Assembly (NCBI GenBank): GCA_026874595.1
Contig: CM049308.1
Span: forward strand, 80,584,124-80,648,123
Direction of reading: 5' to 3'
DNA length: 64,000 nucleotides
Source: Sipunculus nudus
Taxonomy: Eukaryota > Annelida > Sipuncula > Golfingiida > Sipunculidae
Both the position numbers and the translations under genes were made by a program. The notes beneath the pieces were generated by a model. It was not told the DNA's origin. It saw only the letters and a list, made by a program, of their open reading frames with translations, and did no database searches. Below, piece after piece: positions 31,163-62,504 of this stretch (within the stretch, counting starts at the first letter, position 1; the number at the start of each line of letters is the position of its first letter).

Positions 31163-31540
31163 TGTCACAGAACAAACTCTGATCCAGTAGAATCGTCGAT
31201 CCTACTAGGACAAAGTCCGATCGGACTTTCTACTAGGAGAAACTCCGATCAGACTTTCTACTAGTAGGATCGGCGATTCTACTATGACAAACTCCGATCA
31301 TAGCCTCTACTAGGACAAACTCCGATCAACCAGAGACCACAACATGATTAAACTTTCTACTAGTAGAATCGCCGATTCTACTAGGACAAACTCCGATCAT
31401 AGTCTCTACTAGGACAAACTCCGATCATAGTCTCTACTAGGACAAACTCTGATCGTAGTCTCTACTAGGACAAACTCCTATTGTAGTCTCTACAAGGAGA
31501 GACTTACCATAATTTACCTAATTTCTGAAACCTGAGATTA
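31163..31540 (+). repeat. Left arm of element 3
   Basis: This arm starts TGTCACAGAACAAACTC and ends GAAACCTGAGATTA, with CTACTAGG/CCTAGTAG words throughout. The arm length differs from the right arm by subrepeat copy number. Confidence 0.85.
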
Positions 31541-32758
31541 AAAATGAATAAAACATAGTAATATTTTAACCAAATGTTTTATTTATGTATTTGAAAAAAA
31601 AAATAAAGAAAATCAAATACAAGCACATATGATAAAATACAATATCCTACAATTATATATACAAGTCACAGATATACAACTAAATGTTTCATTCAAACAT
31701 ATTCATACAATTTTATTTGATAAAAAAATTACAAATATAAGCACAAGCACATGTAAGCACAAAATGTTTATCTACTTGTATATATGTATAATTCCTTAAT
31801 ATTGATCTAAAATATTTCATTCACATCCTGTCTTAAATTCACAGCAAAAAAATGCAATATATATATCCACATGTACTTATGTTTATCAATTTAACCACTG
31901 ATACAGATTGTAGGTATTTTCAAATAGAACTTTGATTCTCAGAAATACACATTCCTTGGTTAAGTACAATTCATACAAGTTCATATTCTAAAAAATACAA
32001 ATAAAAGCACAAGCACATATAAGCACAAACTGTTTATCTACTTGTATATATGTAAAATTCCTTGATTTAAGGATAGATCTAAAATATTTCATTCCCATCC
32101 TGTCCTAAAATCAGAGAAAAATTGCATTATATACATCAAAATGATTGTATACTATGCCTAGCTTAGTTCATTGAACATACTTGTACAAGCTCAAGTCCTT
32201 AGATATGAAAAAAAAAATGGTTGTGTACTCTGCCTAGCTTGGTTCACTGAACATACCTGTACAAACTTTAGTCCTTAGATCTCAAAACAATGAAGGCCTA
32301 GCTGACCATATTGACAATTGATAGGTTGATGCCTAGCTGTCTCATACACCTTGAATTCTACATACTCTATTATTTATATTTATAAATATCACTATCATTA
32401 GTTTTAATTTTCTAACTTTATACAAAAACTTACTTTATGCCAGTACATACAGATGACCGATCTTTATTTCCCCTGTACACTATAAGGAGCAATCATATAT
32501 AATACAGCGTAATAACAAGATATCTAGAAGTATAGTACATAAAACAATGATTTAATATAATGGTTTTACAAAAAAAAACTAACATGTCAACCATTACTAT
32601 AAACCAATGTATAACCCCACATTAAAAACCAAATAAACAACCATTGTCTTGTATATTGTATAAAACAATCATGGTAAATTCTAGTCTTTTAGAAAGTCAT
32701 ATTGTGTATAATCATAAATAAAACATTTGATTACCATATAACTGTGTTTAATTATTCA

Positions 32759-33103
32759 TAATCTCAGGTTTCATAAATTAGACCATTATGGTAAGTTTGT
32801 CCTAGTAGAAGCTCTGATCCAACTAGTACATTTATATATGATTGGAGTTTGTCCTAGTAGAGACCACGATCGGAGTTTGTCCTAGTAGAATCGCCGATTC
32901 TACTAGTAGAAAGTCTAATTATGTTGTGGTCTCTGGTTGATCGGAGTTTATCCTAGTAGAGGCTATGATCGGAGTTTGTCCTAGTAGAATCACCGATCCT
33001 ACTAGTAGAAAGTCTGATCGGAGTTTCTCCTAGTTGAAAGTCCAATCTGACTTTGTCCTAGTAGGATCGACGATTCTACTGGATAGGAGTTTGTCCTGTG
33101 ACA
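32759..33103 (-). repeat. Right arm of element 3
   Basis: The reverse complement of the left arm: begins TAATCTCAGGTTTC and ends GGACAAACTCC-type units reading outward to CTGTGACA. Confidence 0.85.
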
Positions 33104-33213
33104 TATACATGGATGATGGCATGGTGCCCTCACACCCTCACCTAGCCGGGGACCTAGTTTCCCTATCCCATCACTTGAATATGATATACACTTCACCTTG
33201 TGTGAAATACCTC

Positions 33214-33233
33214 GGGGGGGGGGGGGGGGGGGG
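33214..33233. repeat. (G)20 tract
   Basis: An uninterrupted run of 20 G on the + strand. Shorter G- or C-runs also lie near 7642, 38408 and 42835. Confidence 0.9.
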
Positions 33234-36200
33234 ACCTGATCAGTAGGTGGTTTCAAACCATTTTGATATGCATAAATTTGTTGCTTATGTATGTGACTGC
33301 TGTGTCAGCATAGTTGCTTTAGATTCAGGGAATAGAATGAATGTGTTGAATTGTGAGGCTTTACACCATGTAGTTGAATGTCAGATGGCACCCACAAACC
33401 AGTTCAGCTGTATGTTTGTATGAACTCACTATACCAGGGTTGAAACCCATTCGGGCTATCCACATGTACAGTATTTTAAAACCAATTAAGGTATTTTCAG
33501 AACAAAATGTAGAGTATTTACTTATTACAGCACAGCCTTAATTCATTGTTTTCTAATAAATTGTCTGTGTGTGATATTATCAACATCATATACTCAGATT
33601 AGGTATATTTTCCCTGTCATCTAACTTGATTACTTACAGGATAATAAAATATTGCTGTGAGCAATAACATTTGTGAGGATAATGCTAAGATTGGATTAAC
33701 TTCCTGACTTGTTGATTGCTTGTTCGTTAATAAAATGTCACAGCCAGCATTATATGGCCAGCCATCTGTCAGGCATCTCACTGGGTGCTCAACAGGTACT
33801 TTTCATCCGGTAATAATAAAGTCACAAATGTAAAGAAAAATCCTTGTGTCTGGTCAAGTTTTATGGAAACTCGGCCACACCTTCCCCTGTGACAACTTTT
33901 TGCCCAGAGGGATTCATTTGTCCAGGACCCAAACAAATTTTCTACCGGAAATGGGACTGTCAATAGCGTTATTTGCATGGTTCTAATGACCAGATGATTG
34001 CTTGGCAATTTCCCTCAGGGAGGCCCTTTGTAATAATCTCCAGACTCTCTAGAACAGGTAGATTATTTTCCTGGTTCCAAGGGACTTGTCATCACTTTGT
34101 GAAGAGTGAGCAAGATAGATGTTGCCGCACATGGAGGAATTTACCTTTTTATTGAAGCGGAATTAAGATTAATGAGAAATCTGAGATATATGTGTGTATA
34201 CTTTTATATATATTCCTTAGGTATTTTATCAAAGGAGTATCATAGATTCATAGCTTCTTCAAATTATATGGATTCTTAAAATCTGTATTAAAGGGCATCA
34301 ACTACAATAATTTGAAAGAGATGGTAGCTTTAAGAGATAGAGAGCTCCTAACGTTTTAATATTGTGATAGCAAGGTAACATAATTTTTAAGACAAGTCTT
34401 TTCAAATGACTCATCTAGAAACATTTGATATTCATGTATGTGAATGGTGGTGTTTGCTAACATTAATCTATTGGAATGAAATAAATTAAATGTGTCACAA
34501 CTGTCATTTAGATAGGGCATGAATTTGGACCTTACAAACATTTTTATTCACAATTTACAACTGAATCATATCAGCTAAGATATATAACAGTCAAAATAGT
34601 TTTTTTTTGGTTAAAATATAATGTTTGTATCAGGGCTCTTTATTAAGGAAATGAAGAATTGATCTTTCTTATAGGAGGGTGCTGCCACCTGAAAATATTG
34701 AAGCAGTTATCCTGATCTGGTTCACTCAGTCTGATTTATGTTAGTATTTTAAGACTCTAGATGTTGGCATGTGTAAACCAATTCTATTTCTTCAGTAAGT
34801 AATTATATATTTATTATATTTGTACATTCAGCAACCTTCTGTTATTTCAATTAAATACATTTTAGTAATCAGGGAAATGCCCATTATTGCCTATGTAGCC
34901 ACACTATGTCCAGCTAAGTTTGTATTTAGGATAGTGTTCATATCACAGTATTTAATTAGAGAAAGTATATGTCTACATGTATTGCTATCTCTACACACAT
35001 GATATACAGTGACAAGAATCAGATTGAGTAACAGTGCACTCAGTGACCTCAGTGTGAATGACATAATGCAGTCCACCAAGTGGGAACATCTTATCATCAA
35101 TGTAAATAGTTCTCTAACGTGGTGTGTACATGTGGTCCATACAGAACATGATGGCTCTACCTTAAAAGGCATGGATAAGTGGGAGTGTATTTGTTAGCTG
35201 TTACACAGGTAGTTAATATCTCATAATGTGAGTACAGAGGACTTATGTATCATGTCACCTTTGTTCTTGGTATCTTTTATACTTCATTTAAATGACTGTA
35301 TACCAAACTTCACTTCATTGCATTACTAGACTATTAATAACCCAATGTGTCTCTGTATATATATGTGACAGTTTACATTGGAATCCAAATCACCTGGGTC
35401 ATTCAGTGTTATACTAGTTGAAGTTGGAATTCCAATGTTAACCATTATATTGGAAATCCCATGTAAACTATAAGTTAGCCAGGTTACTTTAAAATGACAG
35501 TCTCAACTGTTGTACATTTGAATTCCCATATGAACTGGTTAAATGAACTAAATTCCCACATACATTGTAACATATGTTAGGACATTTTCTGAAATGGGTG
35601 TGTCTGTATAAGAGAGAATACCACCCTCTTCATTCCCCACTGGACGGCAGCAGGTGTCTGTAGTAGAGAGATGTCAATTAAAAACAGGTTCAGGTAAGGA
35701 GGGGTTACCGTCTTTGTATAAAAATGTTTAAAAATTTACTAAGATTTCTTAATGGATATTTTCACATGTTCAATTAATAAGTTATATGTGACTGAATGCA
35801 AAGTACAAAAAGTGTTGGTTTTGCCTTAATTTACATGATGAATATAAGTTCAGTGCTGTTTCACAGGTAGCATTATCTACATTTTTAACTGTAGTAGCTG
35901 GAGGTATTATGTCACATGTATGCACTAGTGTCTTTTTACTACATTGAGTCAGCCTTGAGTTGTCATCAGGTTTGTTATTTATAACACTATGCTAAAACTA
36001 GCCATAAGAGTCATGTTACTGTGCCATCCATATAAGTAACTGACATATGAAAATTAATTAATATTTTATATGTGGAGCAATGTATGATGATAAAACTCAT
36101 GTTAATGTCACAGGGGTCGTTCAGTGCACTGTGATATAATACAGGATAGGCTGAGAAAGAAACACAGCCAGAGAATACCTACAATAGCTTCTCCTTGTTA

Positions 36201-36629
36201 TTTGCCTTGTGCTGTCATGTAAGTTGATTTATAGAGAGCCAGTACATTGTGATAGTAGGTGAAAAAAATCCCAGTGCATGTATTATCCATTAGCTTTAAC
36301 TTGCAGTTTAGAATTATATGTGATTTTAAAAATGCACTGACTGTGCCAATCAAATCAGAATTTACTGTGCAAATGGTATGAACAAATATGTATAAAGTAA
36401 ATAAATGCACATACTGACTATTGTTTGAAGAGTATCATATACTAGCGATGAAGTGAATTAAAGAGGCTTAAATGAAAAATATAATATATATAGGAGGTTA
36501 TTATTGAATTCATAAGCAATTAGTTCATTTTGTGAAAATGTTCATGAATCTCAACAACAGTCCCTGTTTATTTATGGCACCACACCTCAGTCCAAGTTAA
36601 TAAGGTCATCTTCATTATACAAAGGGGAT
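33234..36629. other. Intronic or intergenic, one candidate leader exon
   Basis: A possible untranslated exon ends with the donor TTCAG|GTAAGG at 35693/35694. Otherwise no coding signal or repeat was recognised. Confidence 0.4.
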
Positions 36630-36790
36630 TCTGTAGTCAGCTGGGTAGTCTAGTTATAACATGGACACTTACTGAAATCTTCTTCACCTTATAGGGTTTA
36701 AATCCCACCACAGATGTTCTGTTGTGTATAATTTACATATTAGGATCTAATGTAAGCCTCAGTGTTGAGCTTTGGGGGATGTAGTTGCTT
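36630..36790 (+). mobile_element. tRNA-like SINE head
   Basis: An A-box-like GGGTAGTCTAGTTATAACATG and a B-box-like GGGTTTAAATCCCACC lie about 50 bp apart, as in tRNA-derived SINEs. The 3' limit is unclear. Confidence 0.45.
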
Positions 36791-36891
36791 TCTACTGAGT
36801 GCCCTCTTCTGAAGCTGGGACATCTAGCTTACTGACTCTTACTTTGTATCTCTGTTTCAGATCAGGATAAAAACATTTAGGGTTAATCAAA

Positions 36892-36906
36892 ATGCCGAGG
36901 AGGTAA
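36892..36906 (+). promoter_or_regulatory. uORF 1 (MPRR)
   Basis: Four codons and a stop in the leader of the coding exon, with AAA before the ATG (favourable -3 adenine). It lies about 100 nt upstream of the main ATG and could reduce initiation at the main start. Confidence 0.5.
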
Positions 36907-36928
36907 ACGGATCTCAGTCTGAGATAAA

Positions 36929-36943
36929 ATGCTGGTTGTCTGA
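36929..36943 (+). promoter_or_regulatory. uORF 2 (MLVV)
   Basis: A second four-codon uORF, also with AAA before its ATG, ends 49 nt before the main start codon. Two minimal uORFs in one leader suggest translational control, if the exon boundaries are right. Confidence 0.5.
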
Positions 36944-36992
36944 GTACCGTGACAAGTGGAATACATACAGACGGACATCATAGAGGGACAAG

Positions 36993-37109
36993 ATGGCAGG
37001 CTCTGGAGACCAGGGTGTGAACTGGAAAGAGCGGTGTGAGACCATGGAAGCCTCGCTGCTCAAGTTCAAGCAGCAGGCCTCCAGGATACGAGAACTACTC
37101 TCCAATAAG
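36993..37109 (+). CDS. First coding exon of a coiled-coil protein, family not identified
   Basis: The ATG at 36993 lies in a good Kozak context (ACAAGATGG). The exon encodes 39 residues, beginning MAGSGDQGVNWKERCETM and continuing ASLLKFKQQASRIRELLSNK, and ends in phase 0 at AAG|GTAAGT. The heptad-like spacing of hydrophobic residues and the many K/R/E/Q residues suggest the start of a long coiled coil. The style recalls GRIP-type golgins and other Golgi or centrosomal coiled-coil proteins, but I cannot name it. No following exon is recognised up to 64 kb, so the next intron seems to exceed 26 kb or small exons were missed. Confidence 0.7.
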
Positions 37110-40100
37110 GTAAGTTCCATCTTGTACAAGATATGTTGGATTATTGCCATTATTTGCTTCCATGTTAGCTCACCTGTGTGCCGTTGCCATGGTGCAGCAT
37201 CCATCCATTATCAGTAGTATGTATACCTGCTGTTTTATGCCTTTTAGCTGTCATAAAAGTGGTTTCTGTCCTTATACCGAGGCATTTTACATACTGGCAG
37301 AGTGGTAAGGGAATGGTGATCACACCAGGGTATCAACTTACACCTGTATGAATGTGCAAAGTTTATGAAAAGTTTTTAATCATAACTGCCAAGGGCACAT
37401 TTATGAAATGTCAACCTAGCAGATATAATATTATATTATAGCAGCCATTAAAAAAAAATAAACATAATTAGCCATTCATTTCTAAGAAGTATTCAGCTTA
37501 GGTTGTGCAGTTTGAATAAGTAATAAAATTTCAAGAGGTGTCATGTTTGAAGTTTGATAATTTGTACTTTTCTGCGGTTCTCATATGCAACATTTTCACA
37601 TCTGAATATCAAGCACTTTGGCTTTTGTTTAACCCCAATAAAAAAATATATTCAGGGATATAGATTATTTAACAAGAGTGTCCTGTACTTGACAAAGGGA
37701 AGTGTTTTTTTTTACTATATATCATGATTGTTTACTACAGGGGAATGTGTATTATGTGTATTAAACTGGACTGTATATTTAATCATATTAGGTCATATTC
37801 AGTATTGGACAGAAATGTCCTTGTGTTCAGAAAAGACAGATATTGAACAGATAATAAAATTTACCATCAGCATACCTATAGAGGAAAATATTTTGTCTAT
37901 AGATCAGTAATAACAAAAACTGCTGGCCCATAAAATAGACCTGACACAGGGCGACATATTTGTATATTCAAGTTTGCAGTAGACAAGAAGGCATAGGGAG
38001 GAAATGGTTTTTGATAAAAGACTACATTAAGGCCAGTTAGTCATCTGCAGGACCTTTTTGTCATTTGCTCATTTTATAGCTTTATAGCTGTCTTGGAGGG
38101 ACCAGTTATTTATAAGATAAAATCATAAGACATTAAAAACTTGATTGATAAATGCACTACAGTGTATTGGGAACTCTTGGCTTGATTTTAAGGTCCATGG
38201 TGCCTGAATATGATTCAGCCTGGGCAGGTTTAGATACAGATGTTTTTTATACAGATGATTATGTAGACAGCCCATAAATCTGCCCTTACACTAAGTTACA
38301 GTTAATGCTGGGTCATTTTCCATGTTTGGTCTTGCAATTTATTACCCATCCATCAGAGCTTTCATTGTTCATAACTTCATCTCTCTCTCTCTCATTTTTT
38401 TTTTTTTGGGGGGGGGGGGGAGGGTGCTAATTGCAATGTGTAAAGAATTCATGAAACTGCATTTTGGGTCATAAATTTAATACAGTTAGGCTTTAGATGG
38501 TTAGGATTTGCTGAGACTGTTTATTAATTTGTACATTGTGTCTTTCTGACATTGAGAGTAAATATAGAACAGGCTTGTTACCTTTATGGTCAATAACTGC
38601 TGTGCCCACTGATGTCTTATTGATCAATCTAAGCTAGTAGTTGTACAGCCTCATTCCTGCCATATTATTACAGTAGGCTCATGTCCCACTTTTGGCATTG
38701 TGTTTAGTAAAACACTGCCCATATTCAAAGCACAGTGTAACATTTTAGCCTTGTGTATGGATATACACATAATCATACATTGTCAGTTGGTATTTTAATC
38801 GAAAATTCATTTTTTTTTCATATTGATATTGAATTTAATTTTGAATGGATTGTTGGGATTAAAAAGTTTTATTAACACATGCCCCATAGATCACACTTTC
38901 CCAGTTTTACTAGCAGTTACCTGTATGCAGGATCTGTAATAATTACAGGTACATCTGGTCAGGCCAAGAATCTGTATGTGTGGTCATTTCTTTCATATCA
39001 GTAGCAAGGGTTTTTCAACGCTGATCTGCATAGTCTATCATAAGATTTTTCTGATCGATCAATACTTGAGTCATGACCCTATTCTACCAAAAAGTGTACA
39101 GCAATGGCCATCCATACCATCAAAATGACATTGCTCTGCTTAGGTAGTGGTCTAAATAGCATAGTTTTTGACATGGCATGTGATGAAACATTGACATCTT
39201 GGTAGACTTTTGTGTTAGAGGGGCAAAAGTGCTGCCACCCAAAAGCCAGAAAAAGTTAAAAAAAAAAGGTAACCAGGGCAACCAGAGAATGTCATTCTTC
39301 AGCTGATGAGTGATGAGAAAATGTTATTACTCTTACTGAAATATAAAGGAAATGTAAAGCTTGCAGTACTTAAGGAATTCTAAAAAAACTGGAATACGTT
39401 TCCTAATTGTAACTTTAGAGAAATCTGAGGAAAAAAACCTGTATGACAGAACTTTGTAGAAATCCTTAAACAACTAGGCCCTGAAAACTAATTTGTAACA
39501 GAATGAGTTGTCCAACATGATTGTTAGTGTTTCAACCTGTGTATTACCCATAAAGCTTGATACATAAAATTACTGCTGACATTGCTAGTTTTGCTTTTGC
39601 TAATTCACATCTGTATGATCCTCAAAGTTCATTAAACTGATTGAACATCACTTGTGGCTGCAGGGGACAGTCATCTGGGTCAGTTTCTAATATCAGAATA
39701 AGTGAGCTGATGTGACTTTGGCAACAATTAATGGCAAGTGACAGTTGATGTTGGTACTGAATTTCCCCTTGCTCACATTTCCCATGGGGAACAAGATACA
39801 ATTTGTATATAGATTGAGGGTCTCACTGGTTATTGACTTAACGTTCACATGTAGTGATTGAAACACAACTGTTGAAGCCAAGCTGCATAACTCCTGATCT
39901 TTTCACATGTTATAGTTTCCCCTTCTTTAGGAATTTATATTATGAAATTAAATCAATAACTTCAATGATTTTCAGTATCAATAGGGTTTAGTTATGTCTT
40001 TTAAAGCCATGTTCAGTCTATACCCATGTTCACTGAATACAGCATTGAGTACCATTTTACTGCTTCTAAATCGACATTCTGCTCACCAGTTAACATTTGT

Positions 40101-40131
40101 GTTTTGACAACATTGGCAGGTATTTTAGATA
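37110..40131. other. Putative intron, nothing recognised
   Basis: AT-rich with a T/G homopolymer at 38.4 kb; no exon identified. Confidence 0.45.
38388..38420. repeat. CT-rich, T-run and G-run
   Basis: Tandem CT units, about 13 T and then 13 G in direct succession. Confidence 0.85.
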
Positions 40132-40851
40132 TACAGTGAAACCTCTATAATGTGAGCAGACTGGGGACTTGGCTAAACTGCCCACTGTATAGAGGTGCCC
40201 ATTATATGGAGGTCATGACCACAACATAAATAATGAGAAGGAAAAAAAAACAGGACTATCAAAAAGTGCCCATTATATAGAGGTGCCCACTTTATTGTGG
40301 TGCCCATTAGGAACTGTACCAAATCCATTAATATGGTATTCACATCAACGCAGTGTGATCACACATTAATTTTATGCATGTCCAATATCGTATCTACAAT
40401 GAATACAAGGAAGAATATATATGTGAATGAGCTATATAAACACGAGAAGTAAATCAAATGCCAAATATCAGCTACCGTATTCAGTGTTGGAAAAAACATG
40501 TTGGACATGCTTGTAGTGTGAACTTTGCTGAAGTTTAGCATCTCAATTAGAACATTAGCAAATCTTAGTTTGTCTGTAATAGAGAGGTGTCTGCATTAAA
40601 GAGGTTATTATTCTTCCATGTCTGCCTCTCACAGCACTGTTTCAAGTGTGCAAAATAGAGAGGTGCACATAGAAGAGAGGGTTCTGTATTAGAGAGGTTA
40701 CCTAATCCCCAAGTCTCCATCCATTAGGACTGCCTCTAGTGTGCTTTAGTCATGTGCTCACAATAGAGAGGTTACAGACCTTAATCTGTTTCACATGAAG
40801 TTCTTTTGTGACTAATATAGAGGTATCTGCAGTTTGAGAGGTATTCCTGTA
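40132..40851. mobile_element. pogo/Tigger-like MITE, 720 bp
   Basis: The ends TACAGTGAAACCTCTATAA and (reverse) TACAGGAATACCTCTCAAA are imperfect TIRs with TA targets. The interior is full of TATAGAGGTGCCCATTA and AGAGAGGT motifs, the GAGG words typical of Tc1/mariner pogo-Tigger ends. No transposase frame is present. Confidence 0.75.
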
Positions 40852-42994: not shown

Positions 42995-43140
42995 TAGGTT
43001 GGACATAGCCTAGTTGTTAAGGCTTTAAATACTTGAACTTAAAGTCCCTGGTTCAAATCCTGTCCTCTAAGATGAAATGATGATTTTTTTTATGGAGCCT
43101 TAAATATTTACTTGAATGTCTTAATAATAGGTCATGACTC
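42995..43140 (+). mobile_element. tRNA-derived SINE
   Basis: The A box TAGCCTAGTTGTTAAGG (43006-43022) and B box GGTTCAAATCC (43050-43060) have tRNA spacing and close-to-consensus sequence. There is no cloverleaf with intact acceptor stem, so a SINE is more likely than a tRNA gene. Confidence 0.6.
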
Positions 43141-44908: not shown

Positions 44909-44909
<1 letters not shown>

Positions 44910-44953
<44 letters not shown>

Positions 44954-45039
44954 CATTGGAGAAAACACGGAGAGAGAGAGAGAAAGAGAGAGAGAAAAGG
45001 AGAGAGGGAGATAGGTAGAAAGAGAGAGAAAGGGAAGGG

Positions 45040-45070
<31 letters not shown>

Positions 45071-46689: not shown

Positions 46690-47110
46690 TTTGTTTGAGG
46701 GGCTGGACAGTGGGGCGAAAGGCCCTTGGTTCAAATCCCACCAATCCCTCAAGGGCAGAATGGTTAAATCCTAACAGAACCTTGGCAGGGATTCTATGAG
46801 ACTTGAACACCAGGCTATAACATCTGGATTTTTTAGACCAGCTTATGTGGTCTGGGGTGGGGGAGTGAGAAGAGACTCAAAGCTGGTGGGTGCACTGCAG
46901 ACATAATTGGAAAGGCTGTGTCCCACATCCATTTTTCACTCACAAATGAGTGCCCCTTTGGAGGGTTTGTTGGTGTTATGACCCAGCAATGGGGATGATT
47001 AAACACCCAAGACCCACAGGTGTGGTAGACACCAGACCTGGGTGATAGCAGGATACAAAAATAACATGACAGGAAACGAGTGCTACTGCCATGTCACATA
47101 GTCCCTAACT
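46690..47110 (+). mobile_element. SINE-like repeat
   Basis: The B box GGTTCAAATCC at 46728-46738 is followed by a body with GGTGTTATGACCCAGCAATG and CACAGGTGTGGTAGACACC. The body matches the inverted copy at 30.29-30.64 kb, so this is a dispersed tRNA-derived family. Confidence 0.65.

Positions 47111-49720: not shown

Positions 49721-49724
<4 letters not shown>

Positions 49725-49762
<38 letters not shown>
49725..49762. repeat. (TA)n target tract of element 1
   Basis: About 19 TA units directly left of element 1. The same kind of tract continues between elements 1 and 2 (51759-51770) and right of element 2 (62253-62270). Confidence 0.95.
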
Positions 49763-49766
<4 letters not shown>

Positions 49767-51758
49767 AAGGCCCAGATCGCGATCTGGACGGATCTTAGAT
49801 CTGTCCAGCCCAAATTGCGATCGCAGTTCAGGCCGGCCCAAACTGCGATCGCAATCCAGGCTGGCCAGATCTTAGATCTGTCCAGCCTAGATTGCGATCG
49901 CAGTTTAGTCCGGCCCAGACTGCGATCCTTCTTTCTTGCTTCAGGATTGCAATCTGGTCTGGACAGATCTAAGATCAGTCCAGCCGAGATTGCGATCCTA
50001 AACTTGACCAGCCCATATTGCGATCCATGCTTTTACGATCACAGGAGTGAAACATTGGTTGTTTTACCAACTCATTTGGTATTGCATTGTACCATTTTCC
50101 CATAATAAATACAATAATACAGAAAGGCAATTTTCACTCCTTCATATCACAGGAGTGAAACATGGGATGTTTCACCAACTCATTTAGTATTGCATGGTTG
50201 TTGAAAAAAGGTAACAAGGAAACCATGGGTTTTATATGCTCACAAAATATGATTTGAAAGAGGAGGTAGCAAGTGCAGGTTTTGTGTGGTAATATAAGCT
50301 GCATTATGAGCTGATGGTGTTTAACTTAAGTAATGTAAGATTATGATAATATCCTTGGAGACAGGGAAGAGGATTGATGTCATTTATATTATATACAGTT
50401 GGAATGGTGTGCTGTTTTCACATAGGTTTTGACTTGGCCATATAACTTTATCTACATTGCAGTAGAATTATTTGAAAAAAACCTGTCCATTATCAGTCAT
50501 GGTAATTCTGATTTTTACAAATGAGAACTTTTATTTAATAATTACTGGTTATTCCTACCCAAGAATAAAACTTAAATAATATAACTATTTATTATAAATT
50601 AATAACAAATATTGTGTCAAATATAATTTAAATTAAAAATAATAACAGCATCATATGAAAAGATCTTTTAATAATATAATTGAAATAAATGATTATTAAA
50701 ATAATATTATAGAATATATTCATGAATACATTCATGATTACATTTTGAAAGTATTTGCATTTGTATTCAAATACTTTCATTTATACCTGTATTCCGATTT
50801 TTATGCATGAAATTATGGAGTACATATATTCCTATTTGCATTCAAATATTTTTGCAAAGTATTCTTATCATGTCTGGTATTTATTCAGTTTCAGCAAAAC
50901 AAAGTTCTTGAGAATCCAGAATTTACAAATTTCACAAATTGATCATAAGTATGATCATAATGATCATAAGTACCTGGTTTTATGGCTTTAATTTATATTT
51001 AAACATAAAACTATTATATTCACTTTGGACTACTTTCACAGCAATCTAAGCACTAGACATAGCAAAGGTCTTATGACAATTATCAACATTACAGAAATCT
51101 TAACAAGAACTTGTCTAAGATCAGATTTTTTATATTTAAAAATTTTTATTTAGAAAAATGTAAAAAATTTAAAAGAAATCTCAGCTATGAAACCATTTTA
51201 AGAATAAAAAATAACTCAAGCATAAGAACACCCTATAAATTGTACAAGGAGAAAACTAGAGATGGGCAAGTTTAATTTTATTAACATAAATTGAGGAACA
51301 AGCAATACAGATTTTGATTATTTACATAGTCTTGTGACAGCTGATACAGCCACGAGTCTTAATATTATTAGTGAAACATATTGACATATTTAATCAGTAC
51401 TTGTCTGAGTAAAATTTAAAAATTTTGACATATTTTACTTTTTTAAATTTTAAAATAACTATAAATTAACAAGCTGAAACACTTGGATCGCATGGATCGC
51501 AATATGGGCTGGTCAAGTTTAGGATCGCAATCTTGACTGGACAGATCTTAGATCTGTCCAGTCCAGATTGCGATCCTGAAGCAAGAAAGACAAGATCGCA
51601 ATCCTGGCCGGACTTAACTGCGATCACAATATAGGCTGGACAGATCTAAGATCTGGCCAGCCTGGATTGCGATCGCAGTTTGGGCCGGCCTGAACTGCGA
51701 TCGCAATTTGGGCTGGACAGATCTAAGATCCGTCCAGATCGCAATCTGGGCCTTGACA
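49763..51758. mobile_element. Foldback-like TIR element 1 (2.00 kb, TGTCA ends)
   Basis: Arms of about 268 bp (49763-50030 and 51490-51758) begin TGTCAAGGCCCAGATCGC. They are composed of palindromic words GATCTTAGATCTGTCCAG and GCGATCGCA in tandem. The interior is AT-rich, has a ~110-bp-spaced direct repeat (ACAGGAGTGAAACAT at 50040 and 50150) and no long reading frame. It sits in a (TA)n tract, so the target is TA/TATA. Confidence 0.85.
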
Positions 51759-53434
51759 TATATATATATATGTCAGAGACGAGATTGAAATCCAGGCGGA
51801 TTTTAAATTGGCCTGGGCGAGATTGCGATTGTGATCTCGCCTAGGCGAGATTGCAATTGTGATCTCGGCTAGAAGGATTTTAAACTCGCCTAGACGAGAT
51901 CACAATCGCAATCTCGCCTAGGCGAGATTAAAATCCATCTTGGAGCAGGCCAGGATTTTAATCTCGCCTAGGCGAGTTTAAAATCCGTCTGGTGTCATCC
52001 AGGCGAGTTTAAAATCTGCCTGATATTACTTAGGCGAGTTTAAAATCTGCCTAGGCGAGATTAAAATAGGGATCTGATCTAATTTCCTAATATATTAAGC
52101 ATTGTAATTGACATATGAAAGATGTTTTCTGTCAGATTTTCAATATTTAACACTGAATGGTTGTATATAGTTAAAAGGTAATATTTTTATTAATATTTAC
52201 AAAATATTATAGTATTGATGTAATAATTAACTTTTTTACAGTAATGTAATAATTATTCATGTGATAATTAACATTAATTTTGGAAACACGAATTATGAAA
52301 TAGATATTTGATTATTATTTGCACATTTGATGTGTTTCATGTGGTCTACAGCATCCTTATCATACCAATTATTTGCTATACATTAATTAATCTTTATTTT
52401 TTTTCCAATTTTCTTAACAACCTTGTGATTGTAAATATCACTAATAATTTTTACAAAAAAATAATTTGTAATTGTATTTAAATATATGGCAATTAGAGAG
52501 TAACAAGAGGTATATTGAAGCACACTTATGAGATATTATGAAGAGCAAATCTGGGGGAAAAAGTCATCCACTTGCATATTGAATCAATCATAGATTGATA
52601 GATATACAGATAGATAGATTAGTCTAGATAGCTATTACTTCACTATTTAATGAGTATATTACACATTAACATAAACAATCATCCTATTTGATAATTCTTA
52701 CAGGACAAACAGAACAAATTAGTTGGTTGATCTAGTTCAAATGTTTCTTTTCACCCAGGTATTCAACACTCAACAGTCAAAACATGTACACTTATGGTAC
52801 AAAATATGCAGGGTATCAGTATTTATGATGGACTTTGATACACCATCCTTTTTTTTTTGGTAATTAAACATCATATGAGAAAAGGTAAAAGTTGATACAC
52901 AGATGTACGCATGTGAATATTTCTTTGTCTTATTTAGTCTTTTATTATAATGTATAATATTCTTCTGATCTTTTTTTTAATGTTTTGTGAGGCATTATGT
53001 GAAGCTTCAATATTTATGTAGACTGTGTTACAAGATAACTGCCTTTTTTTGTATTATATCATATCAGAAAAAATATGATTTCTAGTTTCATAGAGTAATA
53101 GATCATTTATGCATGTGAACATGCATTGAATTATATTGATAAAAAATAAATGAGCTATGTTCCTTTTGTCTTTTTAAAATACTACATTACTAATTTTACT
53201 AATACCAGTTTCCCTTCAAATTAATATTGACAAACAAATTTTTTTTTTTTTTTTTTTTTTGATGTTTTTTTTTTTATTGCACTCCACAAAATATACATCA
53301 AATGTACATATAACACATTATACCAAAACAGAAACAATACATTCTAAGAGTATTTTAGACACAACTGCTTTATGGACGATTCTAAGTTCATCAAATGACT
53401 GGGATACTAAAACATGTAAAACACTAAACCACCC

Positions 53435-54424
53435 CTAGCTTATCATTTCATGATTTTTTAAATACATTGACCATCGTTTTCTAAAAGTTTCTAATTTCTT
53501 ATTCTTTTCCGCTACTTTGTATTCAATTCTTACATATTCATATAAAAAATTTCTAAATCCTTGTATGTTAGGCTTCTGATTATTAATTCTACACTGGTCA
53601 ATATATCTTTTAGCCTGGATTATAATTACATTATACATATCACTTTCATCAATAGAGCCATAAAAAACAACTAACTTCTCTAATCTTAATTCTATTAGCT
53701 GGTCAGTACACCAAGTCTTCAAATCCATCCAAAATTTTTTAGTTAGTCTACATTCCCAAAATAAATGGTTAATTGTTTCTACCTCACCCTTACAAAACGT
53801 ACAATAATCAAAATCCTGAATTTTCCATTTCATAAGCCAATAATTGTTCACTAATATATTATTGAGAAATTTATATTGAAATATCTTCGATCTTGTATCA
53901 TACAGTACTCTGTGAGGAAGTGTATAGATACTAGTGTAATCATCTGGTGTGTTTATTATATATTTTGATATCTTTGGCTTGGTGGGTTGTACAGAACATA
54001 TCTTATTTCTTAATACCTGGTAAATTTTATGTGATTTCAATTTATTCAATGGTACAACAGTTTCTTGAATTTTAACATGTAAATTATGTGCTATATAATC
54101 TTCAGATTCCTTATCTTCTTCAAACTCAATCATATTAATTTGATCTGTAACTGCCTTGCATTGTTTCATTACTAATGTTATTAAAACATACCAGTCAATA
54201 AAATAAATGCTACTTAACCCTTTGGATTTCCAGTATTCAAAAGACAGAACATGGTTCTGTACATCAAATAAATCTTGAACCTTTTGCATTCCCACTTTAT
54301 AGAAATGTTCCCAATAGAATGTTTTCTTATTAAATACAAAGTGCTTATTATGCCATAGATATTGTTCATTTAAATTTACCTCTGCATAATAGTCTAGCTT
54401 TAAAAAGTACCAGCTCTGCATCAC
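53435..54424 (-). pseudogene. ORF2 piece 4: C-terminal domain
   Basis: It is in the same frame as piece 3, past one stop codon. It carries CTFCKGEVETINHLFWEC near its middle-end (C-x2-C...H-x4-C), typical of the L1/Tx1 C-terminus. The natural stop is followed by a short 3'UTR and the poly(A). Confidence 0.82.
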
Positions 54425-54442
54425 CTCTCTGTAAAATTCATT

Positions 54443-55208
54443 TTATTTTTCTAAGGCTAATAACTTGGGTTTGTAGTTGCAGTTAAATAGTAAGTGAATA
54501 TCACTACATATTTTCTTTAAGTTGTAAATCCATAATGCTTTCCAGGGGCCATATTCACTCTGAAAAAATCTTTTGATCCAACCTATTCTGGAAGCCAAAA
54601 AAAGTGACTGCAAATGTGGAACATTCAGACCACCATTTTCTATTTCTTGCACTAGAACAGACCTTTTTATTTTCTCTTTTCCACCATTCCACAGAAAAGA
54701 AAATATAATCTTATTTAGTCTATTTACATATTTCTCTGATATATTATTATTACTGAAATAATAATTAAATTTAGATATTATATATGTTTTTATAATTTGA
54801 ATTTTCCCTTGCAATGTCAGATTTCTTTGTTTCCAAAGCTGTAGAGTATTTTTTGTTTGTTTTAATTTATCTTCCAAATTCAGCTCTTCACACTGTTGTT
54901 TATCATATGATATATACACTCCAAGAAGTTTGATTGGTTTATCAGGCCAGTGAATTCCAAATGGTTTTAATTTACTATTTTTAGATTTACCTATCCATAA
55001 ACCTTCTGATTTTTCTAGGTTTAATTTAAGCCCACTGAATTCTCCAAATGAGTTAACCTGTTTTAAAAAATTGCTGCCTGATGTCTTATCTGAAAGAATT
55101 GCAATTGTATCATCAGCATATTGTAAAAGTTTAACTTGTTCCTGCCCTATTCTAATTCCTTTAATGGCTTGATCATTCCTTATTCTGATAGCTAAAATTT
55201 CGATGGCT
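54443..55208 (-). pseudogene. ORF2 piece 3: reverse transcriptase, YADD part and thumb
   Basis: This frame contains LLQYADDTIAIL (the catalytic YADD), then NLEKSEGLWIGKS and LLGVYIS, as in L1/Tx1 RTs. There is no start codon, since it continues piece 2. It ends at a premature TAA (54443-54445), after which the same frame continues in piece 4. Confidence 0.85.
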
Positions 55209-56267
55209 AATTAGTAATATAAAAAGATAGGGGGACATAGGGTCCCCTTGTCGGACTCCTCTTTCCACTTTAAAATAACCAAAGGTTGTGCCATAATTAA
55301 TTATGCAGCTGCTTATATCATTATATAAAAGCTTTATCCAACGTATAAAGGTCTCTGAAATTTTAAATTTTTTTAGTGTGGCTAACATGAAAGTCCATTC
55401 TAAAGAATCAAAAGCTTTTTCCATGTCTAATGCAATAATCATACCGGGTATTCTTTTATCTTTCGTATATTCAAGCAAATCTTGAACAAACCTAATATTT
55501 TCACCGATAAATCGATTTTTCACATAACCAGTCTGATTAGAGTGTATTATTTTAGGTAGGAGCTTTGAAAGTCTAATAGAAAGTGTTTTAGCCAAAATTT
55601 TATAGTCTGTATTTAAAAGTGATATAGGTCGCCAGTTTTTTAATAAAGTACGGTCTTTATTTTTATCTAATAGAGTGATTACTGCTTGCCTCTGGGATGT
55701 GGAGAGTTTACCCTCCTCAAACGATTTATTAAAAGATCTGACTAATAAGGGACCAACTTGTGGCCAAAATTTCAAATAGAATTCGATAGGCAGACCATCA
55801 TTCCCTGGGCTCTTATTATTTTTAAATGATTTTACTGTATTATACAATTCCTCTGTTGTTAATGGTTCACACAAAAAGTTATTATCTTCTTGTGATAGAA
55901 ATGGGGTATTTATATCTGATAAATATTTTTCGATCTGTTCAAGTGACTTACTGTGATTTGATGAATACAATTTGCAATAAAAATCTTTTTCCAAACAAAG
56001 TATTTCATTTGGAATTATAGTATATTCTCCATTATCCTTTCTTAGTTTTCTCACCCATTTTCTTACTGCATTATATTTTTCTAAATTATAAAAATATTTA
56101 CTACTTTTTTCTCCTTTTTCAAACCAAGTGACTTTTGATCTCAAAATAAGTCCTTCTGTTTTATAATTATCTATCTCTTCCAGTTCTTTTATTTTTTGTA
56201 TTTTTTCAATAATACTTATTTCTGTCTCTGCATCTGAATTAACCAATTTAGTTTGGAGAATTTTCAA
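55173..56267 (-). pseudogene. ORF2 piece 2: reverse transcriptase, first part
   Basis: RT motifs are NWRPISLLNTDYKILAKTL, IALDMEKAFDSLEW (catalytic Asp) and GVRQGDPMSPYLFILL. The last residues after LFILLI are out of frame because of the frameshift near 55205. The tail differs from the real continuation. Confidence 0.88.
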
Positions 56268-57253
56268 TTCATCAAGTAAATCATCTTCTCGTGCTTTTGT
56301 AAATTTCTTTGCTTCTTTACCCTTTTTGACATATAAATCTCTGAGCTTATACTTAACATACTCCCATATCTTACGGTAATATTATTTGTGTTTTCACAAG
56401 ATTCATTTGACCATGTATGTATAGATTCAACTATATGCTTAGTTATTTGGTCCTCATTAAGTAGAAACTTGTTTAGCTTCCAATAACCTTTACCCCTCTT
56501 TGTAGTATATAGAGGGTCTGTACATATAACTAATTTAATAAAAGAATGGTCAGACTTTATATATGGAAATAAATCAGCTTTTACGACATAATCTTGAAAC
56601 TGTTTTGTAATTAGCCAATAGTCTAATCTAGATGATATATTTTCATTTTTAGTTCTCCAAGTATATTCCTTTTTATATGGCTTTCTTGTTCGCCAAATAT
56701 CCAATAAATTATGCTGATCCATCATATCATTTATAGCTTTCCTTACAGAGTCTTTTAGGCATAGAGCACCACCTCTCCTGTCCAACTTTACATTAAGAGC
56801 TACATTGAAATCGCCTCCAATGAGAACTACATCATTAAGTGTGACATATTCTTGCAAAATTTTGTTAAGATTCTTTAAAAAAGAAATTTGATTTGTGGTA
56901 TAATTAGGAGCATAAACATTAATGATAATATATTGAAGGTTTTCAATTGCCAATTTTATGACTAAAATTCCACCATCTATGGAACTGTGTAATAAGCTAA
57001 CACTATCTACATGTAACTGCTGTCTTAAAAGTACTGCTGTTCCTCGACTATTTGTTGTCCCATGTGAATAGAATACCTGTCCACGCCACTCATTCCTCCA
57101 AATATTTTCTATATTTTGACAACTATGAGTTTCTTGTAAAAGTAAAACATCACAGTGTTCTTTTTTTGCCCACCTGAATACCGACCTTCTTTTTAATCTG
57201 TTTTTAAGTCCTCGGACATTTAAACTTAGCAACTTCAAAGTTGTGTCTGACAT
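56264..57253 (-). pseudogene. ORF2 piece 1: AP-type endonuclease
   Basis: The frame starts MSDTTLKLLSLNVRGLKN. Visible endonuclease motifs in order are LNVRGLKN, LLLQETHS, YAPN, GGDFN, RLDYWL and SDHS, which supply the catalytic N, E, D, N, D and H residues. After about 56375 the reading is out of frame; the neighbouring frame continues the protein. Confidence 0.85.
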
Positions 57254-57699
57254 TCAAGGTGTCTGTGTAACATGGTAAATACTATGTGGAGTGAAATTAT
57301 GAAAAAGAATAAATAACACAAATCATAACCTAAACCTAAACTATCCAACCCCTCAGTGAGTGTTAACCTCACTAAACACAACATCATAATTACATTGGAG
57401 ATCTGCTGCTCCCACATGGTTTTGCAAGTATGGGACCAGACAGCAGCTCCTTGGAGAACACAACCACACAGAAGCTTGTGTCCTCCAGAACAAGATAGTA
57501 TCTTATGTCCTATCTGAAATATATATAGACTTGAAGTTAACCAATTACTAATTATAAGATACTCACTTGTTAACTGTCAATCACAATATCTAGCAGTGTA
57601 ACAAAAATGAAAGAACCTTTACACTACGACGATGGATTAGTTGTGACAGTTTGTGTGGTTTGACGACTATAAGATCACAGCGCTCTTTAATCCATTATT

Positions 57700-59110
57700 G
57701 CAACAAGCTGATAAAATATTTCACTGTTTCTTTAAATTTAAAATACTGGTACATGTATAGGATTGTTCAAATAGTTAAACTTAAATGTTAATAGTTAAAT
57801 GACAAAGCCTTGTTACACATATCTTTGACGATCTAGTAGAGCTTTATGAAAATTGGCATATGTCTCCTATTTTAATATTTTACTGTCTTATGTAAAACTA
57901 TCCGTGAGGTAGATTTTGAAATATTCCACTCTTTCTTTAAATTTAAAATCCTCTTACAGGATACACCAAATAATTAAACTTAAGTGACAAAGTCATGGTA
58001 CACATATCTTTGACAACCTAGCAGAACTTTATATACCTCATATTTTAATGTTTTACTGTGTTATGTAAAAATATCCTTGAGGTATCAATTGTATACTAAA
58101 TGGTATCACCTTATACCAGGACTATGACTATGACAACATGACAGAAATACAAAGAATATTAAATAGTAAATGCATAATCTATCTCACTTCTCAGTGATTT
58201 CCAAATGACATTGTAGAACAGCGATGTATGCCATTGATATCACAGTACACCAGTTCACAGTACACCAAATAATTAAACTTAAGTGACAAAACCTTGTCAC
58301 ACATATCTTTGACATCCTAGCAGAAATTAATCTACCTCATATTTTAATGTTTTACTGTGTTATGTAAAAATATCCTTGAGGTATCAACTGTATACTAAAT
58401 GGTATCACCTTATACCAGGACTGTTACTATGACAACATGACAGAAATACAAAGTATATTAAATAGTAAAATGCATAATCTATCTCACTTCTCAGTGATTT
58501 CCAAACAACATTGTAGAACAGTGATGTATGCCATTGATATCACAGTATACCAGTTCACAGTACCCAAATAATTAAACTTAAGTGACAAAGCCTTGTCACA
58601 CATATCTTTGACAACCTGGCAGAACTTTATATACCTTATATTTTAATGTTTTACTGTGTTATGTAAAAATATCCTGGAGGTATCCTTGTATATTAAATGG
58701 TAACAGCTTATACCAGGACTATTACTATGACAACATGACAGAAATACAAAGTATATTAAATAGTAAATGCATAATCTATATCACTTCTCAGTGATTTCCA
58801 AACAACATTGTAGAACAGCGATGTATGCCATTGATATCAAAGTACACCAGTTCATGACTGTGACAACCTGATTGAAATACAAAGTTTTTAAATATGAATT
58901 CATAGTCAATCTCAGTGATTAACTGTGATTTACTGATAACAATCCCACTTTAAAGTAAGCAATTAATATGGACAGAAATACAGAGTATATTAAATAATGG
59001 ATGCATAATCTATCTCACTTCTCAGTGTACAACATTGTACAATAGCGATCGATGTATGCTACTGATATCATAGTACACTAATGCCATGACTGTTACAACA
59101 TGATTGACAT
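57700..59110 (-). repeat. ~299-bp tandem repeat in the LINE inter-ORF spacer
   Basis: The phrase ATTAAACTTAAGTGACAAA recurs near 57971, 58270 and 58569, so the period is 299 bp, with about three good copies. Degenerate partial copies flank them (about 57768 and 58970-59110). No long reading frame is inside. Confidence 0.8.
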
Positions 59111-60276
59111 ACAAAGTGTATTAAATATGACTTCATTGTCAATCTCAATGATTTACTGACAACTATGACACTTAAAAGTGAGAAGAGAATACCTACTCTT
59201 GAAAACAATACTAGAATAGACCAATCAAAGCTTAATAGAGTACCGAAATATAGTCTCTTTAAGTAACACTAAATCTATACTTAAAATTTAAACATCATAT
59301 AGATTGATATATCCAAAAGTGTCTATGAGACTAGACATTATGAACAGATAAAGACACTATGACTACTGTGTACTAATATTATAATTCAGCATTTGGATTA
59401 TTGTAATACTGTCAAAGTCTTTAAAATATTATACAAATAAAAGATTCAAGGACCAAGGATTGCACGGACAGAGAAGATGTGAACAACATCATATCTGTTA
59501 TATATGAAGACTGGTGTATTCAGGGATGTAGACATTTCCATACAGCTTTCTTAATATTTTTTATCTAAAGTCGTAAAGATAAGGAACAATGAGCAAATGG
59601 CAAATTATGTGTTCATTGTTTTATGTTGACAGTGGAATACATGATATAAATACCAAATGTTCCAGTGATGGTGGTTTTTATATTAATATCCTCAAAAGGA
59701 ATAAATATTTATACCATTCAGTTATAGAGGAGCTACAAGATGGAAACATCCCCGCCGAGATGAAGTAGTTTGTTTACAGAAAAAAAATATTTTTAAAAAC
59801 CAGATAAAGATTATTTTTTTTTGCCATGTGCACAAAGAGTGTCAGTGTTTATTGCAGGCTAAAGACATCTTTAAATATACTTCGCAGATCTAGTCTACTC
59901 TGTCCGAGTTGTAACTTATCCATTTAAACTGAATAAACTGCAAACTATCTTTTGACTGATAATTAAAGTAAACCATGGACATTAACTAAAAACCTTTATA
60001 GTAATATTAGGCTTCCAAATAATAATTTCTTCAAAGATAAAATGCAGATGTTTAATAAGGTTCACCACTCAGTGATGTCATGTCCCAAGTTCTCTCCCGC
60101 TACAACCTCAAGTACAACCCGGTTAACCAGTTGTTAACCCCAAGATCGCTTTCATAGAATAAAACAATATTTGATCAAAGTTCCTCATGGGGTCGCTTAA
60201 TATATATTATTTATTTTTGCACTGCAGTTAAATCATTTCGACTGTCCTCACATACCTTTGAATTTCAGTTCGTAGT

Positions 60277-60293
60277 TTTTTTTTTTTTTTTTT
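60277..60293 (-). repeat. Internal poly(A) (minus strand) in the LINE spacer
   Basis: A run of about 17 T on the + strand between ORF1 and the 299-bp repeats. It could be the tail of another retrotransposed piece or an expanded homopolymer. Confidence 0.6.
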
Positions 60294-60602
60294 AAACATA
60301 GACATGCATCGAACACGCATTCCATGATGAGCGATAAAACAATCAATCAATGCCAAGTCCGCTCTCTCATACCCATGGGTCTTAACTGAGTCTCTAATAC
60401 CGTAAATTACTGAGCTGTTAAATCTCTACTTCGTCAATAGAGGCCGCTCTAGCAGACTTTCGCGGGGTTTACTTGAAGTCTCCCTGGTCGTGTTGCCGAA
60501 AATAAATCCTTGGTTACCACAGAGGACAAGAGAATATAAGCCTGCAGAAATAATCCTGGGTGAAGACATGAAACGTCACTGGCCTTATTGAGTTGCCCCT
60601 TG

Positions 60603-61472
60603 TTAAACTGAAATTACCTGGCCTTCAACAATGAGTTGACCCCTGGTAAAGCGTGAACGCTTTCCCTCATTGTGCGCTTTCCTCATATGCGGCAAGGCTT
60701 TTAATCTCTGGTCATAGTCCTCTTTTGTGAAGTCTTCAAACACCAAGTTTCGTCCGTCCTCCCCCCTCCGTTTTCCTCTGGATATTATATCATTTCTCGT
60801 TTCTCTACTATGGAATCTTGCAATGATTTGTCTCACTTTGCCCGGTATTCTTTTTCCTGTTCTGTGTGTATATTCTATAGCTCTGCAAATACCATTTTTA
60901 TCAGCTCCCGGCATTAAATTATGATTGTGTAAAAAGTCCACCAATTTTTCTCTAACTTTCTCATTCTTTTCCTCACGAATGCCATTTACTCTAATGTTGA
61001 ATTCTCTTGTGTGCCTTTTTAAGTTCAGAACATCTTGTTTCACCTCAGTAAGTTCTTTTTCCGCCTCCTCTCTAGCAGAGCGTTCTGCACGTAATTGTTC
61101 CGTCAGGCTTTCATTTTCATTTTTCAGTCCCTCTATACTTTCATGAGCATTATCCAAACTGGTTTCTATGGCCCTCAGTTTAGTTTCAAACTCTTTAGTT
61201 ATATGTTCTATGATGGAACTACGGGTATCACTGACCTGGGTCTGCAGACTTTTAATAGCCGCCATAATGTTCCTGTAACACCTCTCGTCAGACAAATCCT
61301 GCGTGTCCATATCACTGGTGTTATCATCACCTCCAAGTTCCGTTTGTTCTGAGGATACCTGACTGTGCTTTCTCAGCATATACGCATCTACAGTCTGCTC
61401 ACCTGCTTTTGGTTTGTTTTTGGGAGGCATTGTATTCCCCGAAATATTATTTCTTGCAATATTTATGGACAC
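60603..61472 (-). CDS. LINE ORF1 protein (RNA-binding chaperone type)
   Basis: Intact 289-residue frame, though the first ATG may not be the true start (MPPKNKPK at residue 15 is an alternative). Residues about 65-155 form a coiled coil rich in E/K/L. Residues about 155-205 look like an L1-type RRM (FNIRVNGIREEKNEKVREKL). The last 70 residues resemble the L1 ORF1 C-terminal domain (ARFHSRETRNDII, LVFEDFTKEDY, SRFTRGQLIVEGQ). In L1 elements such proteins trimerise and coat the RNA. It lies 3.3 kb upstream of ORF2, an unusually long gap. Confidence 0.8.
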   Translation of the reverse strand: MSINIARNNISGNTMPPKNKPKAGEQTVDAYMLRKHSQVSSEQTELGGDDNTSDMDTQDLSDERCYRNIMAAIKSLQTQVSDTRSSIIEHITKEFETKLRAIETSLDNAHESIEGLKNENESLTEQLRAERSAREEAEKELTEVKQDVLNLKRHTREFNIRVNGIREEKNEKVREKLVDFLHNHNLMPGADKNGICRAIEYTHRTGKRIPGKVRQIIARFHSRETRNDIISRGKRRGEDGRNLVFEDFTKEDYDQRLKALPHMRKAHNEGKRSRFTRGQLIVEGQVISV

Positions 61473-62504
61473 TACTCAGAGCGCTGTCAAGGCACGTCTA
61501 CCTAGGTGTCGCCATTAACCGGAAGTCCCTTGACAAAAAAATTATTATGTAAATAATCAGCACCAGCCCACATCATATATCATTTGAATATGCCATATAC
61601 AATACCAATGTAAGTTTCTTATTACCTAGTTTATAAATAAAAATATAAAATAAAAAAAATAATTAATGTTAATTATTACATAAATATTATAATATTCTGT
61701 AAATATTATTAAATATATATTACTTGTGAACTATACTTAACCATATTAATAAAAAATATATAATATAAAATATTCCATTTCCAAAATTAATGTTAATTAT
61801 TACATTAATAATATAATATTCTGTAAATATTAATAAACATATTACTTGTGAACTATACATAACCATTCAGTGTTAAAATATTGAAAATCTGACTGAAAAC
61901 ATCTTTCCTAAGTCAATTACAATGCATAATTTATTGGGAAATTAGATCAGATCACTATTTTAATCTCGCCTAGGCAGATTTTAAACTCGCCCAAGTGATA
62001 TCAGGCAGATTTTAAACTCGCCTGGATGACACCAGACAGATTTTAAACCGCATAGGCGAGATTAAAATCCTGGCCTGCTCCATGATGGATTTTAATCTCG
62101 CCTAGGCGAGATTGCGATTGTGATCTCGTCTAGGCGAGTTTAAAATCCGTCTAGCCGAGATCACAATTGCAATCTCGCCTAGGCGAGATCACAATCGCAA
62201 TCTTGTCTAGGCGAATTTAAAATCCGCCTGGATTTCAATCTCGTCTCTGACATATATATATATATATATAGTTATTCTATATAGGGAATAATAAATAAAG
62301 TTTTGAAGAACATTAAAGTCTAAATTAGAGCTTAGGATCTAAAATTAATTTCATAAAGGTGCAGTAGCTAGTTTTGTTGTGATATCTTTAATAGAATGTG
62401 AATAATATGCAAATTATAAAAAAAACTTTGACTGTCATTTGACAGTTACAAGAGGCCGAGTTAATATTTATGGTTGTACCTCTATAGCCTTGCAGTACCA
62501 CCTA

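Follow-up and report, generated by a model that had tools for sequence, protein, structure and literature searches.

Three diverged foldback-like elements in a Sipunculus nudus locus share one geometry of mirrored half-sites

The elements and their shared tips

We analyzed a stretch of 64,000 nucleotides from the sipunculan Sipunculus nudus (GenBank assembly GCA_026874595.1, contig CM049308.1, positions 80,584,124 to 80,648,123 of the forward strand), hereafter the window, which contains three foldback-like elements, E1, E2 and E3. A sequence-only reading of this stretch had proposed that they agree in ends, target and size while differing in sequence, and that one machinery moves them all. 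Throughout, the sample comprised three elements and six arms, with one copy per family. The elements and their immediate flanks, in window coordinates, are as follows.

31159..31162, no strand: left target duplication of E1, TATT, which is TATA with one change; three of four positions match the right copy
31163..33103, no strand: E1, non-autonomous foldback-like element of 1941 bp, TGTCA...TGACA
33104..33107, no strand: right target duplication of E1, TATA; joining the flanks on this copy gives GTATAC
49763..51758, no strand: E2, 1996 bp, within a (TA)n array
51759..51770, no strand: (TA)6 spacer of 12 bp between E2 and E3
51771..62252, no strand: E3, 2179 bp without the long interspersed nuclear element (LINE) in its core, sharing the (TA)n array of E2

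These measurements bear out the earlier coordinates and sizes (about 1.94, 2.00 and 2.18 kb), and the TGTCA start and TGACA end noted before were present at all six ends. Long inverted arms were likewise confirmed: in E1 they span 272 bp, ungapped and 94% identical, in E2 ~268 bp in two blocks (95-96%), and in E3 465 alignment columns with two gaps, 436 of them identical (94%). The cores are AT-rich, as had been described, with a GC content of 24-26% against 35% for the window. No element holds a long reading frame: over whole elements, stop-free runs reach at most 83, 113 and 68 codons in E1, E2 and E3, respectively.

Arm homology and mirror-centre geometry

When compared without gaps from the tip over positions 6-145, the left arms are identical at 72 of 140 positions between E1 and E2, 73 between E1 and E3 and 81 between E2 and E3 (51-58%). 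Dinucleotide shuffles of these arms averaged 34-36 identities (standard deviation ~5, maximum 55-57), and none of 5000 reached the observed value for any pair. MAFFT aligned the first 175 bp of all six arms without a single gap, yielding 59 invariant columns. In 30-bp windows, a common register reaches ~155-170 bp in two pairs (E1-E2 and E2-E3) and nearly 200 bp in E1-E3 before it is lost; in the E2-E3 window at position 66, lags of -6 and 0 scored equally, and the window at position 6 was left unused because negative lags run off the sequence. Differences between E2 and E3 comprise 43 transitions and 16 transversions (43/59), as descent would predict. For E1-E2, 31 transitions stand against 37 (left arms) or 39 (right arms) transversions, and for E1-E3 the numbers are 32 and 35.

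Judged by these alignments, the arms of E1, E2 and E3 are shown to be homologous and the elements are distant relatives, with a likeness between families that is too weak for ordinary sequence searches. The previous claim that the subrepeat words differ completely is contradicted by the ungapped identity of the left arms, the gapless alignment over 175 bp and the common register of mirror centres described below. Since the arms are homologous, the proposed contrast of shared ends, target and size with unshared sequence fails. We give very little credence to three unrelated transposon families having arrived independently at TGTCA tips and palindromic arms. Such short tips do occur in many superfamilies, and blastn returned no match between families for either cores or arms, but this explanation is contradicted by ungapped identities far beyond shuffles and by a single geometry in six of six arms.

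This geometry is built from a 10.5-bp half-module (a) and a 14-bp half-module (b), both of which are mirrored at their ends, the mirror centres. In the average over E1, E2 and E3, palindromes are strongest at seven centres, 34.0, 72.5, 111.0, 149.5, 86.5, 58.5 and 135.5 bp from the tip. From the tip inward, the outer arm reads as a b-like half-site ending at 20.5, identified by eye from the stacked arms, followed by aa, bb, bb, aa, bb and b. The form of this two-module rule was devised after viewing the arms, and only its parameters were searched afterwards. Each arm was evaluated alone over 16,820 combinations of first centre, a and b; 34.0/10.5/14.0 was the best of them in all six outer modules, listed here with scores out of 54.

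31163..31325, plus strand: E1 left outer module, tip to ~163 bp, ordered b* aa bb bb aa bb b; 34.0/10.5/14.0, score 44
32941..33103, minus strand: E1 right outer module; 34.0/10.5/14.0, score 40
49763..49925, plus strand: E2 left outer module; 34.0/10.5/14.0, score 43
51596..51758, minus strand: E2 right outer module; 34.0/10.5/14.0, score 41
51771..51933, plus strand: E3 left outer module; 34.0/10.5/14.0, score 40
62090..62252, minus strand: E3 right outer module; 34.0/10.5/14.0, score 42

Left and right arms of an element have almost the same sequence (94-99% identical across the first 120 bp), so agreement among six arms amounts to three independent choices. Elsewhere in the window, the score was 27.7 +- 2.1 with a maximum of 38 at 2637 places, retained from 3000 random draws after dropping overlaps with elements or (AT)n. 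A scan of both strands with the geometry fixed, taking the best 25 places on each, returned exclusively the six arms, other phases of their arrays and TA-repeat tracts at ~23.2 and ~49.7 kb. Palindrome profiles of the family pairs matched best at register 0 in three of three comparisons (r 0.25, 0.33 and 0.42; next best 0.23, 0.26 and 0.26), and none of 316 shifts equalled register 0. Most periods reported by TRF can be composed from the same two modules: 28 (E1, E2 and E3) equals 2b, 21 (E1) equals 2a, 49 (E1) equals 2a+2b, 77 (E1 and E2) equals 2a+4b and 98 (E2) equals 4a+4b.

The words that fill this frame have turned over family by family. Within a family, half-sites in different slots are 0.74-0.80 identical for b and 0.78-0.91 for a, whereas between families identity in the same slot (b 0.53, a 0.51) does not exceed that between different slots (b 0.54, a 0.52). 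This pattern is that of concerted evolution, in which the ancestry of individual slots has been lost while slot positions persist. The consensus b words, AGGAGAAACTCCGA, GGCCTAAATTGCGA and AGGCGAGATTACAA for the three families, are still related to one another. By eye, the E3 half-site words at 51771-51920 resemble E2-type CGATCG words in which CpG has become TpG on one strand.

Within-family homogenization and the lack of any between-family insertion or deletion (indel) in the outer module are both shown. We infer that selection holds the spacing because the outer module lacks such indels despite ~42-49% substitution, which suggests that spacing may count more than spelling for the moving enzyme. 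Mere inheritance of the geometry, with one ancestral array, neutral homogenization of words through gene conversion and no selection on spacing, strikes us as a less probable account that still deserves weight. It predicts homology and homogenization equally well, and the rarity of indels alone could suffice. Against it, families differ at about half of their sites and yet no indel has entered the outer ~150-165 bp, while the inner parts lose register; spacing should also shift through unequal exchange among repeats. The idea of one machinery with subrepeat turnover in the arms was sustained, in the form of a common geometry with words homogenized per family.

Folding, target site and neighbouring features

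Palindromic subrepeats, already described in the sequence-only reading, were evident in single-strand folds of 150-base pieces of the outer arms, with z-scores of -7.5 to -11.0 in six of six arms and none of 200 shuffles of each reaching the observed value. We weighed a model in which the ends are recognized as folded single strands or cruciforms, with selection acting on base pairing instead of words. The folds favour it: the hairpin centre in the minimum-energy structure, taken by eye from dot-bracket strings, lies at ~72.5 in three of six arms, namely both arms of E1 and the right arm of E2. So do 61 mirror pairs, in which 83.6% of cells pair (71.4% in shuffles), 56 cells carry changes on both sides (21.7 in shuffles) and covariation is 0.46 (0.23 in shuffles, at most 0.115 in slid registers). 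Further pair types, however, show no excess (39 against 40.9 in shuffles), and the two arms of E2 differ in their best hairpin (~34 and ~111 on the left), as do those of E3 (~97 left, ~111 right).

Selection on hairpins, convincing by pair counts, was undone once partner halves were compared with non-partner halves. For b halves, identities at the same centre and at different centres were 0.69 and 0.68 in E1, 0.67 and 0.78 in E2 and 0.73 and 0.86 in E3; for a halves, they were 0.88 and 0.97, 0.90 and 0.90, and 0.75 and 0.75. These comparisons are small (in all, n=18 and 36 for b, n=12 and 12 for a). As partner halves are no more alike than others, a word repeated in both senses explains the both-sided changes and accounts for the covariation, which, within these small samples, disfavours reading the fold pair by pair. 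We consider selection on folded ends unlikely and favour double-stranded arrays of half-sites read by protein. The earlier suggestion that the machinery recognizes nothing beyond the terminal bases or a fold was not upheld, given the ~150-165 bp of geometry held in common besides the tip, the unmatched partner halves and the variable best hairpin.

The target site could be read at E1, where the left flank is TATT and the right flank TATA, a 4-bp duplication with three of four positions matching. Assuming that the right copy preserves the original and that the left TATT is altered, the joined flanks read CCCG followed by TATACATGG, a GTATAC target. At other lengths, the E1 flanks match at 1/2 (2 bp), 1/3 (3 bp), 1/7 (7 bp), 2/8 (8 bp), 1/9 (9 bp) and 2/10 (10 bp) positions. 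E2 and E3 are flanked by ATATAT, which fits RTATAY; because both lie in (TA)n, every even length from 2 to 12 matches and the length of their target-site duplications (TSDs) is unreadable. The previously proposed TATA duplication in TA-rich targets thus stood for the TA-rich setting and, at three of four positions, for the E1 duplication; for E2 and E3 the duplication is unreadable. An RTATAY target with a 4-bp duplication is supported by one readable site, and such a preference would explain the microsatellite location of E2 and E3.

We compared these properties with published superfamilies, using excerpts of the sources. Ginger2/TDD elements have TGTNR ends, prefer RTATAY targets and duplicate 4 bp on insertion, or 5 bp in the case of TDD-4 and TDD-5, with terminal inverted repeats (TIRs) of 45-297 bp (Bao et al. 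2010, PMC2836005). TGTCA at six of six ends agrees with TGTNR, GTATAC at E1, the one informative site, agrees with RTATAY; of the arms, those of E1 (272 bp) and E2 (~268 bp) lie inside the TIR range and those of E3 (465 bp) outside it. The same source describes a short Ginger2 derivative, Ginger2-1N1_NV (252 bp), whose name marks it as non-autonomous. There are differences as well. Ginger2/TDD elements encode an integrase-type transposase with H2C2 and DDE motifs, whereas E1-E3 lack a long frame; and mirrored half-module arrays like those seen here are not described for them in the excerpts, with the word 'tandem' absent from the main text of PMC2836005. On ends and target, Ginger2 membership seems likely. 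The suggestion of Ginger-type elements in the sequence-only reading can accordingly be narrowed to Ginger2/TDD, as the CCGG or CCGT target reported for Ginger1 (PMC2836005) does not fit the GTATAC and (TA)n found here.

Duplication length also bears on other assignments. The poor matches of E1 at 3, 7, 8, 9 and 10 bp argue against PIF/Harbinger (PHIS; 3-bp TWA), Galileo of the P superfamily (7-bp GTANTAC) and Foldback/Mutator-like elements (MULEs; 8-10 bp). A 2-bp TA duplication, as in Tc1/mariner, matches E1 at one of two positions; E2 and E3 match at both, which is uninformative in (TA)n. For IS481EU, the TNT..AYA ends fit TGTCA, and its TSDs are ~4, 15 or 25 bp, with E1 matching at three of four positions for 4 bp; its TIRs, mostly <50 bp as opposed to arms of 268-465 bp here, and its publication from parabasalids count against it. 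PHIS and IS481EU were compared through excerpts of PMC4482050 and PMC10045372.

Among known systems, MuTAnT MULEs resemble E1-E3 in their long modular foldback arms and insertion into (TA)n microsatellites (excerpts of PMC4486113), which recommends a Foldback/Mutator-type element aimed at TA microsatellites as an explanation. MuTAnT duplications, however, are 9 bp, those of Tetris 8-10 bp, and MuTAnT has a MULE transposase and GGGG tips in place of TGTCA; E1, moreover, lies outside any microsatellite. We regard this explanation as improbable. Tetris, which is Foldback-like, and Galileo share the foldback-type structure with long restructured arms (excerpts of PMC4079207 and PMC4168063). Galileo TIRs may grow through tandem repeats, with units of ~140 bp in the sole D. 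willistoni copy having them, and Galileo duplications measure 7-8 bp (consensus GTANTAC) and those of Tetris 8-10 bp, unlike E1. Subterminal arrays of CACTA/EnSpm elements, in which units of 10-20 bp are repeated in both orientations close to either end, offer a model of how an end made of many binding words works (PMC8978399); they differ in their CACTA tips and 3-bp duplication, and the excerpts of that source describe no half-base geometry across families.

Searches for relatives gave the following results. A pattern of the shared end columns had no match in viral and prokaryotic contig collections, which says little given those hosts. A shorter end pattern including TATA had none in viral contigs and two in genome contigs, taken as chance: they score 18 and 16 of 54 on the geometry, and the locus contains no exact partner for the 14-bp end. 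One word per family gave no match in viral contigs, blastn within the 64-kb window found no further copy of E1, E2 or E3, and Rfam reported no family at gathering score. Among the open-licence literature matches listed, none describes arms of fixed geometry.

The E3 core is interrupted by the following insertion.

53241..61529, minus strand: LINE with frames for an endonuclease, a reverse transcriptase and zf-RVT, plus a coiled-coil frame; duplication TTGACAAACAAATT/TTGACAAAAAAATT at 53227 and 61530

Exo_endo_phos, RVT_1 and zf-RVT matched above the Pfam cut-off, and coiled-coil families matched the fourth frame below it; by domain order we infer an L1-type LINE with the coiled-coil frame as ORF1. 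The flanking duplication of 12-14 bp has one mismatch, and its last two T merge into the poly-T. Between the ORF2-like and ORF1-like frames, ~3.3 kb (57254-60602) lack any stop-free run of >113 codons and hold a 299-bp unit in three tandem copies (57962-58854); no convincing terminal inverted repeats surround this interval.

Elsewhere in the window, a satellite block at 15163-22987 comprises a 278-bp unit (x2.8) followed by a 337-bp unit (x~20), with GGTGGCGCCACC in both consensus units. A diverged inverted repeat at 23452-26758, in two blocks (70% and 79%) with ~3 kb between its arms, adjoins GACA repeats and a long (AT)n and is possibly an older element. The segments 30348-30478 and 46930-47060 form an inverted pair of 131 bp (82% complementary) separated by 16 kb and may be copies of one dispersed repeat. 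At 4035-4397 on the minus strand, a frame matches TMEM18 with a Pfam score under the curated threshold (E 0.00068, 20 bits versus 26.9) and is possibly a host exon.

Proposed mechanism and implications

Our preferred interpretation, which we consider reasonably probable, is that E1-E3 represent three diverged non-autonomous families of one group, mobilized in a Ginger2/TDD-like manner, with ends of fixed geometry and drifting words. A Ginger2/TDD-like integrase-type transposase would move the elements in trans, cutting at TGT...ACA, inserting into RTATAY and duplicating the 4-bp TATA. The outer ~150-165 bp of each end forms an array of fixed geometry, in which a tip half-site is followed by 10.5- and 14-bp half-sites reflected at mirror centres, and each half-site might dock one subunit of the transposase or of a partner protein. 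Selection would hold the geometry if synapsis takes place on a rigid array. In each family, the word is homogenized across the array; between families, it drifts, presumably alongside the DNA-binding domain of its reader.

Several observations weigh against this interpretation. A single insertion per family underlies the ends and the TSD, and the E1 TSD carries one mismatch. The transition excess is weak for E1-E2 and E1-E3 (31-32 of 67-70 differences), and blastn (word size 7, E 1e-3, in the window) recovers no match between families in arms or cores. Mirror centres are uneven: at least 9 of 12 positions are complementary at 34 and 72.5 in six of six arms and at 111 in five, and the same level is attained at 58.5 and 86.5 in four arms, at 149.5 in three and at 135.5 in one. 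A TRF period of 31 in the inner arms of E3 falls outside the two-module rule, and at 465 bp the whole E3 arms exceed the 45-297 bp given for Ginger2 TIRs in the excerpts of PMC2836005. Pfam searches of ten frames in the window, six in the LINE and none in E1, E2 or the E3 arms, detected no transposase. Finally, where indels are rare, the geometry could be plain inheritance.

More tentatively, and with less than even probability, the end may be ruler-coded, so that mirrored half-site steps of 10.5 and 14 bp are required while the words are homogenized and can be replaced wholesale. If true, families would split by word change with the architecture of the transpososome kept, amounting to a spacing-coded end with a drifting password. 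This bears on how transposon families can stop depending on one another's transposase and yet retain a single cutting machine. With three families in 64 kb that combine one geometry with different homogenized words, geometry and word become experimentally separable. For families that sequence similarity misses, we suggest searching for TATA and TGTCA together with mirror centres at 34, 58.5, 72.5, 86.5 and 111, a geometry rule that could place orphan foldback elements in an integrase-type superfamily.

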